From contig NZ_CP034791.1 of assembly GCF_003999255.1 (NCBI RefSeq), forward strand, positions 639,001-703,000: a stretch of 64,000 nt of DNA, read 5' to 3'. The notes under the pieces were generated by a model that was not told the origin of the DNA, did not search any database, and saw only the letters and a list, made by a program, of their open reading frames with translations. This document shows positions 37,172-42,054 of the stretch, piece by piece. How positions within the stretch are numbered: position 1 is the first letter of the stretch; every line of letters starts with the position of its first letter. Origin of the DNA: Caldicellulosiruptor changbaiensis (lineage in GTDB: Bacteria; Bacillota; Thermoanaerobacteria; Caldicellulosiruptorales; Caldicellulosiruptoraceae). A program made the translations under genes and the position numbers.

Positions 37172-37393
37172 AATATTGCAAAAATATCTCGGTAGGCGAG
37201 GCTCCTACAGGGATATAGGCTGCTGCCGCGAAAGATTGGAGACAATCTGAGCTGGTAAACAGGTTTTGCCGAATCCAAGGCATAACCTAATGCAGCTTTT
37301 TATGCCGTGTAGTGCCAAAGCTTGTACGAGGTAGCTAAAAAGGGTAAAGTGTGCTTTCACCTCGTTTTAAGCTTTGGGTGAAAGCACTTTTTG
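37172..37393 (+). promoter_or_regulatory. M-box (ykoK) magnesium riboswitch with terminator
   Basis: The M-box core is plain: GGTAGGCGAGGCTCCTACA (37191-37209), GCTGCCGCGAAAGATTGGAG (37221-37240) and AACAGGTTTTGCCGAA (37258-37273) match the family's conserved blocks in order and spacing. The expression platform is GTGCTTTCACC (37351-37361) with GGTGAAAGCAC (37377-37387) and a T run. CTTGTACGAGG upstream can pair with CCTCGTTTTAAG in the terminator's loop as an antiterminator. In known M-boxes high magnesium folds the aptamer and ends transcription. Confidence 0.9.
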
Positions 37394-37454
37394 TTTGTAT
37401 GCAAAATTTAAACTAACCTCTAAAACTTTATGATTAAAGGAGATGAGAGGACAG

Positions 37455-37550
37455 ATGGATTCTGGTCCTGTGAGTAGACAGGATTGGGGGAAAGAAAAAG
37501 TAAAAAGCTCTTTTTCGAATGCGTGGAGGGGTGCTAACTTTTTGAGTTAA
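37455..37550 (+). CDS. Candidate leader peptide (uORF) in the magnesium operon leader
   Basis: 31 codons from ATG 37455, or 35 from the in-frame ATG 37443, ending in tandem stops TAA TAG. The peptide begins MDSGPVSRQDWGKEK and ends SNAWRGANFLS. AAAGGAGATGAGAGG lies just upstream. The codons for WRGAN overlap the first copy of the repeat that controls the downstream ribosome site. It is unlike any protein I recognise. Coding is inferred from position, ribosome site and double stop; it could be chance. Confidence 0.45.
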   Translation: MDSGPVSRQDWGKEKVKSSFSNAWRGANFLS

Positions 37551-37662
37551 TAGCCGAAAGAAAGCACGAGGTTTTTTTGTCCCTTTTTACAAATAGATTT
37601 TGTCAAACTATTTAGCACCCCTCCACAAAAGGAAAAACTAATTTAAAAGGAGGGGTGCTAAG
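37523..37662 (+). promoter_or_regulatory. Three-copy repeat able to hide or free the mgtE-N ribosome binding site
   Basis: GTGGAGGGGTGCTAA (37523-37537) is an exact reverse complement of TTAGCACCCCTCCAC (37612-37626). A third segment, GGAGGGGTGCTAAG (37649-37662), repeats the first over 13 bases, contains the ribosome site and touches the ATG at 37663. The middle segment can pair with only one of the others at a time. Pairing with the third hides the ribosome site; pairing with the first frees it. The exact pairing is seen; the switching is inferred. Confidence 0.75.
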
Positions 37663-38913
37663 ATGGCTAATGTCACAAGTTTTTACCTCAGCAGAGTTAT
37701 TGGCAACAAGGTATACTCAGAAGACAAAAAAGTTCTGGGAAGACTCGTGGACCTAATTGTTGACGCAAAGAACATCAGGCCCAAAGTAATTGCTGCAAAA
37801 GTCAAAAGCGGAAAGAATGTCCAAATAGTAGACTTTTCGTTCTTTATAATTTACAAGGAAAAAGGGCAATATGTAATTGAGACCAGGAACTTAAAGCCAA
37901 TTGATGTGCAAAAAGAAGATACGATAATGCTTGTAAAGCATATCCTTGACAAGCAGATAGTTGATATGAACGGCAGAAAGGTTGTAAGGGTAAATGATAT
38001 AAGACTTGCAATTTTATCAACAGGCGTTTATGTAATTGCAGTTGATATTGGATTAGAAGGGTTGTTGAGGAGGCTTGGTCTTGCAAAGCCTCTCAAAAAG
38101 GTATTAAAACCTCTTGGCAAGAGCATCCCATCTCGACTCATCTTATGGGATGACGTTGAGCCTCTTGCATCACCGCGCTCGGATTTAAAACTTTCAACCA
38201 CATACTCAAAGCTCTCAACTTTACATCCGTCGGATTTAGCAGATATCATTGAAGAGCTTGACAAAAAGACTCAAGCATATGTATTTTCAACTTTGGACGA
38301 GGAAAAGGCAGCAGATGTTTTGGAAGAGCTTGATGTTGAGGCACAGCGGAATGTCCTCGAGAGTCTTCCTGTTGAAAAGGCTGCAGATTTGCTTGAAAAG
38401 ATGCCAGCAGACGAGGTTGCAGACATATTGGATGAGATAAAAGAGGAAAGAGCAGAAGAGCTTTTGAACGAGATGGAAAAAGAGGCATCAGAGGAAGTAA
38501 AAGAGCTGATGGAGTATCCCGAGAACACTGTTGGAAGTATTATGACAACAGATTTTATCGCGTTCAAGACCCACTTTACAGTTGAGCAAACAATAGAAGA
38601 ACTAAGACGATTAAAACCAGAGCCAGATGAAATTTACTATTTATACGTTGTTGACAATGAAGAGAGGCTTTGCGGTGTTGTGTCTTTGCGCGACTTGGTA
38701 ATTTCTGAGCCACAAACTCCACTTTATGAGATTATGAGCAGAAATGTTGTGTATGTAAAAGATATGGACAATGTAAACTCTCTTGTATCGATTATTTCAA
38801 AATACAGCTTATTGGCTGTCCCTGTGGTTGATGATGACAAAAGACTCATTGGCGTTGTGATAATAAATGACATAGTTTATGAACTACTCAAAGTACGAAA
38901 AAAATTAGTATAG
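37663..38913 (+). CDS. PRC-barrel / MgtE N-domain / CBS protein without channel domain
   Basis: 416 residues, all soluble. A PRC-barrel-like region fills about 1-150, then the MgtE N superhelical repeat at about 185-285 (HPSDLADIIEELDKKTQAYVF ... PADEVADILDEI), then a CBS pair (VGSIMTTDFIAF ... VSLRDLVISEP; IMSRNVVYV ... LIGVVIINDIVYELL). In true MgtE these domains sense cytosolic magnesium and gate a C-terminal five-helix channel, which is absent here. Its place under an M-box and 33 bases before an NRAMP-like transporter suggests it senses magnesium for that transporter. It should not be named a full MgtE. Confidence 0.88.
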   Translation: MANVTSFYLSRVIGNKVYSEDKKVLGRLVDLIVDAKNIRPKVIAAKVKSGKNVQIVDFSFFIIYKEKGQYVIETRNLKPIDVQKEDTIMLVKHILDKQIVDMNGRKVVRVNDIRLAILSTGVYVIAVDIGLEGLLRRLGLAKPLKKVLKPLGKSIPSRLILWDDVEPLASPRSDLKLSTTYSKLSTLHPSDLADIIEELDKKTQAYVFSTLDEEKAADVLEELDVEAQRNVLESLPVEKAADLLEKMPADEVADILDEIKEERAEELLNEMEKEASEEVKELMEYPENTVGSIMTTDFIAFKTHFTVEQTIEELRRLKPEPDEIYYLYVVDNEERLCGVVSLRDLVISEPQTPLYEIMSRNVVYVKDMDNVNSLVSIISKYSLLAVPVVDDDKRLIGVVIINDIVYELLKVRKKLV

Positions 38914-38946: not shown

Positions 38947-40194
38947 ATGCCACAGATAGCAAAAGGGCAGCGTCTTAAGAATATACTTTTCATATTAAGT
39001 ATTATTGGACCAGGGCTTGTGACTGCAACTGCTGATAATGACGCATCAGGAATTGCGACATACGCAATGGTTGGTGCAATGTTTGGCTACAAGATGCTTT
39101 GGGGGCTATTTTTAATAACAATCAGTTTAGCAGTTATCCAAGAAATGGCTGCACGAATGGGCGTTGTAACAGGGAAAGGTCTTTCTGACCTTATCAGGGA
39201 GCACTTTGGTGTCAAGATGACATTTTTTGCGATGATTACCCTGCTTATTGCTAATCTTACAACGACAATTGGTGAGTTTGCAGGTATTGCAGCAAGTCTT
39301 GAGATATTTGGAGTCTCAAAATATATCTCAGTTCCTTTAACAGCTATTTTTGTATGGTATATTATAAACAAAGGTTCATATAAAAAAACAGAGAAATTTT
39401 TTCTTGCTCTCATGGTAATATATATAAGCTATATAATTTCAGGTTTTTTAGCAAAGCCGGAGTGGAAAGAGGTATTTAAAAATACATTTGTTCCTTCTTT
39501 CAGTTTCAATTCGAGTTTCATTTTAATTTTTATTGCGATGATAGGAACAACAATTACTCCTTGGATGCAATTTTATCTGCAGTCATCTGTGGTTGACAAA
39601 GGTGTTGATGTAAAAAACCTCAAATACCAAAGATGGGATGTGTTTTTGGGAGCGTTCTGGACAGATTTTATTGCATTTTTCATTGTTGTTGCAACAGCAG
39701 CAACCTTGCACAAACATGGGATTGTGATTGAAACAGCGGAAGATGCAGCAAAAGCTCTTCAGCCCTTTGCAGGAAAATATGCATCAGCACTTTTTGCAGT
39801 TGGACTTTTTGGGGCATCACTATTGGGAGCGCATATTTTACCTTTATCTACTGCATATGCTGTAACTGAAGCTTTTGGGTTTGAAAATGGACTGAACAAG
39901 AAGATGAGAGAAGCGCCTGTTTTTTATGGTTTAATACTTTTGTTCATTGTCATAGGAGCAGGTGTTATTTTACTTCCAAATATTCCTTTAATAAAACTTA
40001 TGATAATCGCTCAAGAAATTAATGGTATATTGCTACCAATAATCTTAATTTATATGTTAAAGCTGACAAATGACAAAGAGATTATGGGGGAGTATGTAAA
40101 TTCGAGAACATTTAATATAATTGCGTGGATAACAGTTGTATTTATAATAATTCTCACATTAATACTGCTTGTCGAGCCTTTCTTAGGTGTGTAA
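38947..40194 (+). CDS. NRAMP-family transporter, magnesium-type (NRMT-like)
   Basis: 415 residues, about 11 membrane helices. It is an SLC11/NRAMP-fold protein (SIIGPGLVTATADNDASGIAT at the first helix). The classic helix-1 DPGN reads DASG (Asp 32 kept, Asn lost), and the helix-6 A-x-x-M-P-H reads T-x-x-T-P-W at about residues 201-206. Loss of the soft Met ligand is a feature of NRAMP-related magnesium transporters, and the upstream M-box agrees. Substrate magnesium is therefore favoured over manganese or iron, as inference. The start ATG has GAGGTGATAG upstream. Confidence 0.85.
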   Translation: MPQIAKGQRLKNILFILSIIGPGLVTATADNDASGIATYAMVGAMFGYKMLWGLFLITISLAVIQEMAARMGVVTGKGLSDLIREHFGVKMTFFAMITLLIANLTTTIGEFAGIAASLEIFGVSKYISVPLTAIFVWYIINKGSYKKTEKFFLALMVIYISYIISGFLAKPEWKEVFKNTFVPSFSFNSSFILIFIAMIGTTITPWMQFYLQSSVVDKGVDVKNLKYQRWDVFLGAFWTDFIAFFIVVATAATLHKHGIVIETAEDAAKALQPFAGKYASALFAVGLFGASLLGAHILPLSTAYAVTEAFGFENGLNKKMREAPVFYGLILLFIVIGAGVILLPNIPLIKLMIIAQEINGILLPIILIYMLKLTNDKEIMGEYVNSRTFNIIAWITVVFIIILTLILLVEPFLGV

Positions 40195-40222: not shown

Positions 40223-41353
40223 ATTATACAGAGGTTGTTGAATAAAAGAAATAACCATATAAAGTAAACATAGTAACAAATGAAAAAAACCCCTTGTGTT
40301 ATAATTTAATTTAAGAGAAAACCACAACAAAACACAAGGGGGAAAAGATATACTCATGAATATTAAAGCACAAAATAAGAAATTTTTAAAGCTACTTTTT
40401 GTAGTGAAAAAGGTTACTGAAGCTCTGACAAGGAGAATAAAGCACAATAGAAGAGGACGCCCAAGGAAATTTAATTTGTTTCAAATAATAGCTTGTCTGG
40501 TTTACAAAGTTAAGAAGGGGATAAAGAGTTTCAGAGAATTAGAATATCGAATAAATCAAGACACAGAGTTTAAGCAAGTAGTAGGTATAGAAGAAAGTCC
40601 GGACTATTCATATTTTGCGAAGTTGTCAAGAAAAATAGAAAAAGAATACATGCAAGATATAAAAGACATATTAATAGCTAAGATAGAACCTGATATGAGT
40701 ATAGCGATAGTAGATTCTACACCTTTGAGAAGTGCCAAAAATGATTCAGAAGCAAAAATAGGTATACATATTACAATAGGATTTTACAGGGGATACAAAT
40801 TACATCTTTTGTGTACAGGTAAAGAAGAAGTAATACCACTTTTCTGGATTTTAACAGGGGCAAATGAACATGACTCAAGACAAGAAGAGCTTTTATATAG
40901 GGCATGGGGCTTTGGCTGTGAGATTGTATTAGCAGATGCGGGATACGATTGTAGCAGATGGTTTAATATAGCAAATGAGCTTAAGGTTAAATTTGTTGCT
41001 GGGATAAACAAAAGAAACATGAAAGATAAAAACAATGTTAAGAATGTTTTTAGAAGAAATAACATAAGATTTTTAGAAACTGAAGAGGGCAAAAAGCTAT
41101 ACAAGCATAGAACAAAGATTGAAAGACTATTTAGTAAATTAAAAGGTGAATATAATCTTGAGAATGTAAGGCTCAGGAGGTTTAAGAATTATAAAAGGTA
41201 TATTGATTGGATACTAATTACTTTTTTGTTTGAGCAACTTCTCAGAAAAGTAGAAGGTAAGAAGTTTTCTTTCGCATATGAATGGAATCAATAACTTTTG
41301 CTCATTTTATGTATTATTGGTAATAATTTTTATTCAACAACCTATATTATACA
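40223..41353 (+). mobile_element. Insertion sequence, about 1.1 kb, with terminal inverted repeats
   Basis: The ends AGGTTGTTGAATAAAA (from 40232) and its inverse (to 41343) are imperfect inverted repeats over 25 bases with 16 outer bases identical. ATTATACA occurs just outside both ends (40223-40230 and 41346-41353), which may be an eight-base target duplication. One transposase gene fills the inside. It landed between the NRAMP gene and tRNA-Ser and looks intact, so it may be recent. IS family is uncertain (IS4/IS5-type DDE). Confidence 0.85.
40356..41294 (+). CDS. DDE transposase (IS4/IS5-type)
   Basis: 312 residues. The N-terminal part has the helical region with GRPRKFNLFQIIACLVYKVK. 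The DDE residues are likely Asp in AIVDSTPLRS, Asp in IVLADAGYD and Glu in RTKIERLFSKLKGEYNLENVR. The YREK-like ending and length fit IS4/IS5-group enzymes. It cuts and rejoins the element ends. There is no frameshift or stop. Confidence 0.9.
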   Translation: MNIKAQNKKFLKLLFVVKKVTEALTRRIKHNRRGRPRKFNLFQIIACLVYKVKKGIKSFRELEYRINQDTEFKQVVGIEESPDYSYFAKLSRKIEKEYMQDIKDILIAKIEPDMSIAIVDSTPLRSAKNDSEAKIGIHITIGFYRGYKLHLLCTGKEEVIPLFWILTGANEHDSRQEELLYRAWGFGCEIVLADAGYDCSRWFNIANELKVKFVAGINKRNMKDKNNVKNVFRRNNIRFLETEEGKKLYKHRTKIERLFSKLKGEYNLENVRLRRFKNYKRYIDWILITFLFEQLLRKVEGKKFSFAYEWNQ

Positions 41354-41362
41354 AAATAAAAA

Positions 41363-41455
41363 TGGCGGAGAGAGTGGGATTCGAACCCACGGTACCGCTT
41401 TTGGCGGTACGCGCGATTTCGAGTCGCGTGCCTTCGACCACTCGGCCATCTCTCC
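41363..41455 (-). tRNA. tRNA-Ser (anticodon CGA)
   Basis: Read on the minus strand: acceptor GGAGAGA with TCTCTCC, anticodon stem CGCGACT-CGA-AATCGCG, a long variable arm (GTACCGCCAAAAGCGGTAC) as expected for serine, T loop GGTTCGAATCC, and an encoded CCA end. 93 bases. It reads UCG codons. Confidence 0.95.
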
Positions 41456-41480
41456 GCCTCTTTTTATTTTTGCACTATCG

Positions 41481-41509
41481 ATTATAATCTATCTTTTGCT
41501 CATTTTCAA
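41481..41509 (-). promoter_or_regulatory. Sigma-A promoter of tRNA-Ser
   Basis: On the minus strand TTGAAA, a 17-base spacer and TATAAT, about 25 bases before the tRNA. Confidence 0.6.
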
Positions 41510-41531
41510 GACAAAGATTTTCATTTTGCAA

Positions 41532-41560
41532 TTGACAATTCCACAAAATAGAAGTAATAT
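41532..41560 (+). promoter_or_regulatory. Sigma-A promoter before the broken thioesterase gene
   Basis: TTGACA (perfect -35, 41532-41537), a 17-base spacer, TAATAT (41555-41560). Confidence 0.6.
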
Positions 41561-41656
41561 ATTTATTAAAGTGAATATTGTGAACAAAATTGTGCACCAT
41601 AATAAAGTACTAATACATGAGAGACTTTATTACCCAACTTTAAGGAGGCAAGAAAG

Positions 41657-42054
41657 TAGAAAAAACTAGGGCTTGTAGTTGGACTAAGGAAAGAAATAGC
41701 AGCCACAGTCACAGATGACATGCTTGCTTCGCATTTTCAAAGTGGGTTTTTAGATGTGTTTGCAACACCTTCAATGATAACACTGATGGAGAAGGCAGAA
41801 CTTTCGTGTGATCAGGAGCGTTTAGAAGATGGGTATACAACAGTTGGAAGCAGAGTTGAAATTTTTCACATAGCACCAACTCCAAAAGGAATGGAAGGGA
41901 AGGCTGTTGCTAACTAATTGATATCCAAGACAGAAAACTCATTTTTAAAGTTGAGGCTTATGACAAGTTTGAGAAGATAGGCAAGGGAATTCACGAGAGG
42001 TTTATTGTTAACAAAGAGAAGTTTTTGCAAAAGACATATCAAAAGGCAAGGTGA
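41657..42054 (+). pseudogene. FlK-like hotdog-fold thioesterase, broken
   Basis: The frame reads KKLGLVVGLRKEIAATVTDD then SGFLDVFATPSMITLMEKAE and GYTTVGSRVEIFHIAPTPKG, clearly the fluoroacetyl-CoA-thioesterase-like family. Two lesions are visible. The expected start, eight bases after TAAGGAGG, is a TAG (41657-41659), as if TTG or ATG had mutated. A one-base loss near 41916 moves the ending (LIDIQDRKLIFKVEAYDKFE ... NKEKFLQKTYQKAR) into another frame, and the frame before it stops at 41915-41917. A good promoter and ribosome site remain. No other start is plausible except an internal ATG at 41720. Confidence 0.75.

Follow-up and report, generated by a model that had tools for sequence, protein, structure and literature searches.

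The three segments around the ribosome binding site (RBS) of the mgtE-N/CBS gene are best interpreted as the arm through which a leader-peptide attenuator gives its output. In the window, which is the whole 64 kb stretch of DNA analysed, they probably form part of a ribosome-operated translational attenuator, located 3' of an M-box terminator and controlling the mgtE-N/CBS-nrmT operon. The tandem of M-box and leader peptide is widespread. With a little less confidence, and still leaning in its favour, we propose that Bacillota M-boxes commonly serve as the first of two sensors in a magnesium gate. The second would be an M-[DE]-x-[DG]-P leader peptide that reads Mg2+ via ribosome stability and swaps the RBS helices in nrmT operons, analogous to MgtL and either of independent origin or ancient.

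The features of the leader and its operon all lie on the + strand. The M-box (ykoK, RF00380) Mg2+ riboswitch aptamer is found at 37181-37341, with 130.4 bits against a cut-off of 44. Its intrinsic terminator, a stem-loop and T run at 37351-37392 (GTGCTTTCACC ... GGTGAAAGCACTTTTT), has a stem-loop that is near-identical in 12 of 12 genus members. The first gene (37663-38913) encodes a soluble MgtE-like protein with Pfam matches to PRC, MgtE_N and CBS. The second (38947-40194) encodes NrmT, an Nramp-related Mg2+ transporter by its Pfam Nramp match and by its nearest solved chain, 7qia, which we take to be the Eggerthella lenta NRMT structure. Against solved chains, the NrmT product matched 7qia with E 2e-123 and the best other chain with E 2e-31, and judged by sequence this Nramp-family protein is far closer to 7qia than to any MntH. 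M-box control of NrmT genes, with an MgtE-like fragment co-transcribed, has been described (PMC4072509). Directly downstream of the nrmT gene there is an IS-type transposase-like ORF (40356-41294). A tRNA gene on the opposite strand (41366-41455) is overlapped by an ORF at 41298-41669 that is unlikely to be a real gene.

Copy 1 (GTGGAGGGGTGCTAA, 37523-37537) is the anti-sequester strand. Copy 2 (TTAGCACCCCTCCAC, 37612-37626) is its exact reverse complement and forms the middle, anti-RBS strand, with either copy 1 or copy 3 as partner. Copy 3 (GGAGGGGTGCTAA, 37649-37661), of 13 bases, holds the RBS of the mgtE-N/CBS gene, directly 5' of the ATG at 37663. The original prediction had described a 15-base segment, its exact inverse and a third 13-base copy with the RBS, and all three are present as claimed within 37523-37661. 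It was equally right that the middle strand pairs with one partner at a time, giving mutually exclusive helices at this RBS, and that the M-box terminator comes first and the triad after it; the arrangement of the two in series is also supported. Such a triad (13-mer, reverse complement and 13-mer within 200 nt) occurs only once in the whole window. For a 12-nt stretch of copy 2, the pairing energy is about -25 kcal/mol whether the partner is copy 1 or copy 3. With dinucleotide-shuffled intervening RNA the value was -9.7 ± 1.5, and none of 60 shuffles was as good as the real copy 2 pairings.

Some other readings of this region were rejected. The triad belongs neither to the M-box aptamer nor to another known aptamer, the M-box having its own terminator. 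As for a second riboswitch, no Rfam family reached threshold in 37342-37700, after the M-box, and the sub-threshold matches there (miRNA, lncRNA and similar) were at chance level only. Neither helix 1:2 nor helix 2:3 is a transcription terminator, with no U run after either. An apparent structure near 37565-37585 (GCACGAGG/T-run) is not kept in relatives.

Copy 1 lies within a small upstream ORF (uORF) that was absent from the original prediction. This uORF (37455-37550; 31 codons, MDSGPVSRQDWGKEKVKSSFSNAWRGANFLS, and a stop) is located 3' of the M-box terminator, starts with MDSGPVSRQDW, runs through copy 1 and ends 61 nt 5' of copy 2 and 98 nt 5' of the main RBS. Its Shine-Dalgarno (SD) site, AAAGGAG, is at 37436-37442, with a spacing to the ATG of 12 nt, above the usual length. 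Conservation was followed in 13 leaders, from 12 genus members and one sister genus. AAGGAG, the start site and MDSGPV are kept in 13 of 13, and MDSGPVS in 12. The tail of the uORF varies among these leaders in sequence, length and even reading frame; within the genus, copy 1 is read in each of the three frames. The stop never comes before copy 1 ends and always precedes copy 2. Inside the uORF, over codons 4-10, a small hairpin TCCTGT/ACAGGA (37466-37483) is kept in the genus, also across a frame shift in one member (L004), whereas the sister genus has not kept it. This hairpin may play a part in holding or shedding the ribosome.

These features correspond to those of a translational attenuator: a leader ORF with its SD site is present upstream of the regulated gene and conserved in 13 relatives, and of two mutually exclusive helices one covers the RBS, with segment 1 placed in the leader ORF. 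Furthermore, MDSGP brings an acidic residue and a proline into the first residues upstream of an Mg2+ transporter, as in peptides of the MgtL and MgtQ type, a class also defined by ribosome drop-off that depends on Mg2+ and is modulated by bL31 or EttA. Since the uORF that contains copy 1 is conserved and its N-terminus is like those of leader peptides that sense Mg2+, the switch is probably operated by the translating ribosome.

Nearly all substitutions in the 13 leaders keep the 1:2 and 2:3 pairings intact. For helix 1:2, 98.8% of cells are paired, with changes on both sides at three pairs, and only 2 of 500 shuffles reached as high. Helix 2:3 is 98.6% paired with one double change and is not significant alone (61 of 500 shuffles), as expected if RBS function holds copy 3 fixed. 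Base changes that keep both pairings in relatives, on which the original prediction had staked its case, are thus seen in the 12 genus members and the sister genus, and are compensatory in 1:2.

Folds were modelled at 37 and 70 °C, the latter being a fitting temperature judging from genome content. When copy 1 was masked, the SD site of the main gene had an unpaired probability of 0.00-0.05 in 13 of 13 genomes at both temperatures. In nascent RNA ending before copy 3, helix 1:2 formed with a probability of about 1, again in 13 of 13. For the full-length RNA of the window at equilibrium, P(1:2) was 0.00 at 37 °C and 0.04 at 70 °C, so the finished RNA is predicted to be mostly RBS-closed, with helix 2:3 winning. 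An equilibrium two-state switch is therefore rejected for the window, and the open state must come from the order of events during transcription, through kinetic trapping; the decision would be taken while the RNA is being made, as in classical attenuators. The natural on/off choice of the original prediction survives in that the mutually exclusive helices are kept, while a stand-alone RNA toggle is probably not what they form. Masking the whole uORF in 16 distant leaders gave a mixed result, with the RBS clearly closed in few, so the case for the polarity proposed below draws chiefly on the window's own family.

From this anatomy, and by analogy with MgtL and MgtQ, we infer the following sequence of events. 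At low Mg2+, the M-box would let RNA polymerase past the terminator, and ribosomes would initiate on the uORF. If the uORF is completed, the ribosome would sit on copy 1 during the synthesis of copies 2 and 3, and helix 2:3 would form and close the RBS. When Mg2+ is low, the acidic and proline-containing N-terminus MDSGP would lead to ribosome drop-off or stalling within the first codons, leaving copy 1 free to trap copy 2 during transcription, with the RBS open. The operon would in this way ask two questions, whether free Mg2+ is low (M-box) and whether ribosomes are failing for want of Mg2+ (peptide), and both would agree in direction, low Mg2+ meaning ON. Several points count against this mechanism. 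MDSGP, with a single acidic residue and a single proline, is poorer in such residues than MgtL; the open state depends on kinetic trapping; helix 2:3 by itself covaries weakly; the SD spacing of the uORF is long; most CorA-type M-box leaders have the peptide but no detectable three-strand switch; and in the scan of ribosome positions given below, the RBS opened most from the middle of the uORF and not from its first codons.

The leader peptide is not restricted to the window. In the phylum sample, a search for an SD site plus MDSGPV matched the genus only, and the class was located through M-boxes and the neighbouring gene rather than by this pattern. Here a uORF was counted when an ATG ORF that follows an SD site and has Asp or Glu in second position lay within 220 nt of the aptamer. 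Among 96 M-box loci from the class and phylum, where loci of related species are not independent, 49 are followed by such a uORF, against 2.3 ± 1.4 in dinucleotide shuffles (maximum 6 in 100 runs). The 49 loci hold 40 distinct N-termini after duplicate removal. The uORF is not universal to M-boxes, as the other 47 lack one by the strict criterion. After SAM riboswitches, none of 30 sampled from the phylum has a uORF with Asp or Glu at residue 2 (Fisher p 4e-8 versus M-boxes).

Across distinct peptides, Asp makes up 14% of residues 3-8 and 3% of residues 9-30, and Pro 15% and 3% (p 1e-9 for each), with a proline peak at residue 5 (22 of 52). The most common N-terminal form is M-[DE]-x-[DG]-P, as in MDSGP, MDAGP, MDTDP, MDGDP and MDPDP, and M[DE]x[DEGAN]P is present in 33 leaders with 21 distinct hexapeptides. 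The codons of MDSGP differ synonymously between clades, including TCT versus AGT for serine, which argues for selection on the peptide and not on the RNA and against nucleotide-level conservation as the source of MDSGP. Enrichment of ATGGA by initiation context alone is unlikely, with Ala, Gly and Val at residue 2, which also give ATGG, not being enriched.

A few leaders stand apart. One genus member has a second M-box (L065, G004:C1:699201-699368) together with a gene resembling those of P-type ATPases and an MDGGGSS uORF that is almost the same as in leaders of another family (f3, g5); this suggests that the whole leader was horizontally transferred. In eight M-box leaders (L072, L085, L094, L095, L108, L127, L137 and L164) the uORF overlaps the predicted transporter start out of frame, and this points to direct occlusion or to coupling, either in place of hairpin exchange or in addition to it.

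The best surviving alternative, which we nonetheless consider unlikely, is an arrest peptide. Here the ribosome would stall at or after MDSGPVSRQDW on some signal, Mg2+ or other, and leave copy 1 free, with the RNA logic unchanged from that of a destabilising peptide and a different sensor. A scan of ribosome positions at 70 °C agrees with it, as the RBS of the window opened most with the ribosome at codons 11-14 and not at codons 2-7, and so does the DW at residues 10-11, which is kept together with the codon 4-10 hairpin in most of the genus. To our knowledge, arrest peptides need a defined, longer sequence, whereas residues beyond 5-7 of the uORF are not common to different genera, and the feature shared phylum-wide is Asp plus Pro or Gly in residues 2-5. 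The destabilising peptide remains our preferred sensor.

The three-strand design also extends beyond the genus. Homologues of mgtE-N/CBS in named genomes include those of Clostridium, Desulfosporosinus and Paenibacillus. Among 36 scanned, 12 have an M-box at threshold, and 11 of these 12 have such a uORF. In most of these distant leaders, the triad recurs in unrelated letters, made up of a uORF segment, the complement of that segment and the main RBS, as in Desulfosporosinus (GTATGGAGGGAA / AATCCCTTCATA / AATGGAGGGATTT; L198), Paenibacillus (GTCCGGAAGGATGC / CATCCTTCCGGA / ACCGGGAGGGTT; L195) and Clostridium manihotivorum (ATTAGGGTGTACT / TGTGCACTCTAA / GAGAGTGTACAA; L243). A three-strand score, requiring both pairings of one and the same stretch of copy 2 and compared with 60 shuffles, was significant (0 or 1 of 60 as good) in 13 of 13 family leaders and in most distant ones. 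Copy 1 is inside the uORF or at most 1 nt from its stop in 34 of 34 leaders, these being picked for a positive score.

By the same score the switch is undetected in most CorA-type M-box leaders, though the peptide is present, and the design is therefore not universal. Six leaders of this kind (L124, L126, L132, L134, L136 and L138), followed by genes assigned as CorA-type by eye, have an N-terminus MDDP... and are mostly without a detectable three-strand switch. On the other hand, five homologues without an M-box at threshold (L202, L208, L215, L217 and L246), among them one from a Candidatus Kapaibacterium MAG, have the uORF (MD or ME) and the three-strand layout. The peptide module can thus do without the riboswitch, and seems to exist on its own.

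A rather improbable reading is translational coupling, in which translation of the uORF aids the downstream gene, by re-initiation or by unwinding of the sequestering helix, and a translated uORF means ON. Some uORFs do end near or overlap the main start, and in two leaders (L063 and L115) the uORF stop adjoins the main SD. In the window, the distances from the uORF stop to copy 2 and to the main RBS are too long for ordinary coupling, and the fold model has the RBS closed once copy 1 is masked. Least probable is the pure RNA switch of the original prediction, in which an ion, temperature or a bound protein would decide whether copy 2 pairs with copy 1 or with copy 3, and the ORF would have no role: both helices are conserved, and the states are close in energy at 70 °C in several species (P(1:2) 0.03-0.93), but the start site, SD and peptide are conserved too, with synonymous codon changes across distant clades, the uORFs are enriched after M-boxes and not after SAM riboswitches, copy 1 is in or at the uORF in the 34 leaders mentioned above, and no Rfam aptamer follows the M-box.

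In the literature searched, ribosome-destabilising leader peptides are described for a few enterobacterial Mg2+ genes. If the pattern reported here holds, about half of the M-box leaders in the phylum combine such a peptide, in series, with a riboswitch that senses the same ion, and they do so ahead of Mg2+ transporter genes of several unrelated types. Gauging magnesium by ribosome instability would then be a general bacterial strategy, and dozens of natural peptides would be at hand to define the destabilising motif. Reporter studies of M-boxes would have to control for a hidden translational switch 3' of the terminator.

Translational attenuators of the erm type have their segment 1 in the leader ORF, and the partner of segment 2 is either segment 1 or the segment with the RBS; their inducer is an antibiotic, and no riboswitch stands in series. 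Their segment layout is like that of the window, from which the inducer and the missing riboswitch set them apart. The M-box-controlled nrmT genes with an MgtE-like fragment share with the window the aptamer, the terminator logic and the target genes, while the excerpted text of PMC4072509 mentions no uORF or second translational switch. As for pe20 of Mycobacterium tuberculosis (PMC12810186), it is also an M-box followed by small ORFs, with SD, anti-SD and anti-anti-SD pairing. There, unlike in the window, it is the M-box itself that acts as translational switch, with control over the uORF and with termination by Rho; uORF1 shows poor conservation, and uORF2 is the product under regulation rather than a sensor that has been proposed (PMC12810186).

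The claim that no leader with this layout had been described has to give way in part to mgtQ of the Salmonella mgtCBR operon (PMC8092293), which is similar; what was not found is the same layout with an M-box in series. An M-box with a destabilising leader peptide or attenuator in Bacillota was likewise without report in the literature searched, which covered few subscription journals. In mgtQ, an 8-codon ORF carrying Asp2 and Glu5 controls which of the alternative stem-loops forms at the mgtB RBS, and poor translation of this uORF raises translation of the transporter (PMC8092293). Both leaders have a small ORF with an SD site, an acidic residue 2 and alternative stem-loops over the RBS of an Mg2+ transporter. 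Unlike the window's, the mgtQ ORF lies between two genes in Gammaproteobacteria, with four stem segments (1:2, 2:3, 3:4), a different transporter and no M-box described, and we claim no homology past the acidic residue near the N-terminus.

Lastly, mgtL of E. coli and Salmonella mgtA (PMC11282234, PMC11552253) shares with the uORF class an N-terminus of the M-[DE]-x-[DE]-P type. In E. coli MgtL, EPDP comes right after Met and ribosomes are shed there in low Mg2+; changing Glu2 and Asp4 to Gln and Asn made expression of a downstream mgtA fusion undetectable (PMC11282234). The consensus M-[DE]-x-[DG]-P matches EPDP as quoted there, a likeness that does not imply homology to MgtL or MgtQ. The output of mgtL differs, being Rho-dependent transcription termination, with neither RBS sequestration nor an M-box. 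Efficient translation of the mgtL leader means OFF and drop-off at low Mg2+ means ON, the same polarity as we propose for the window.
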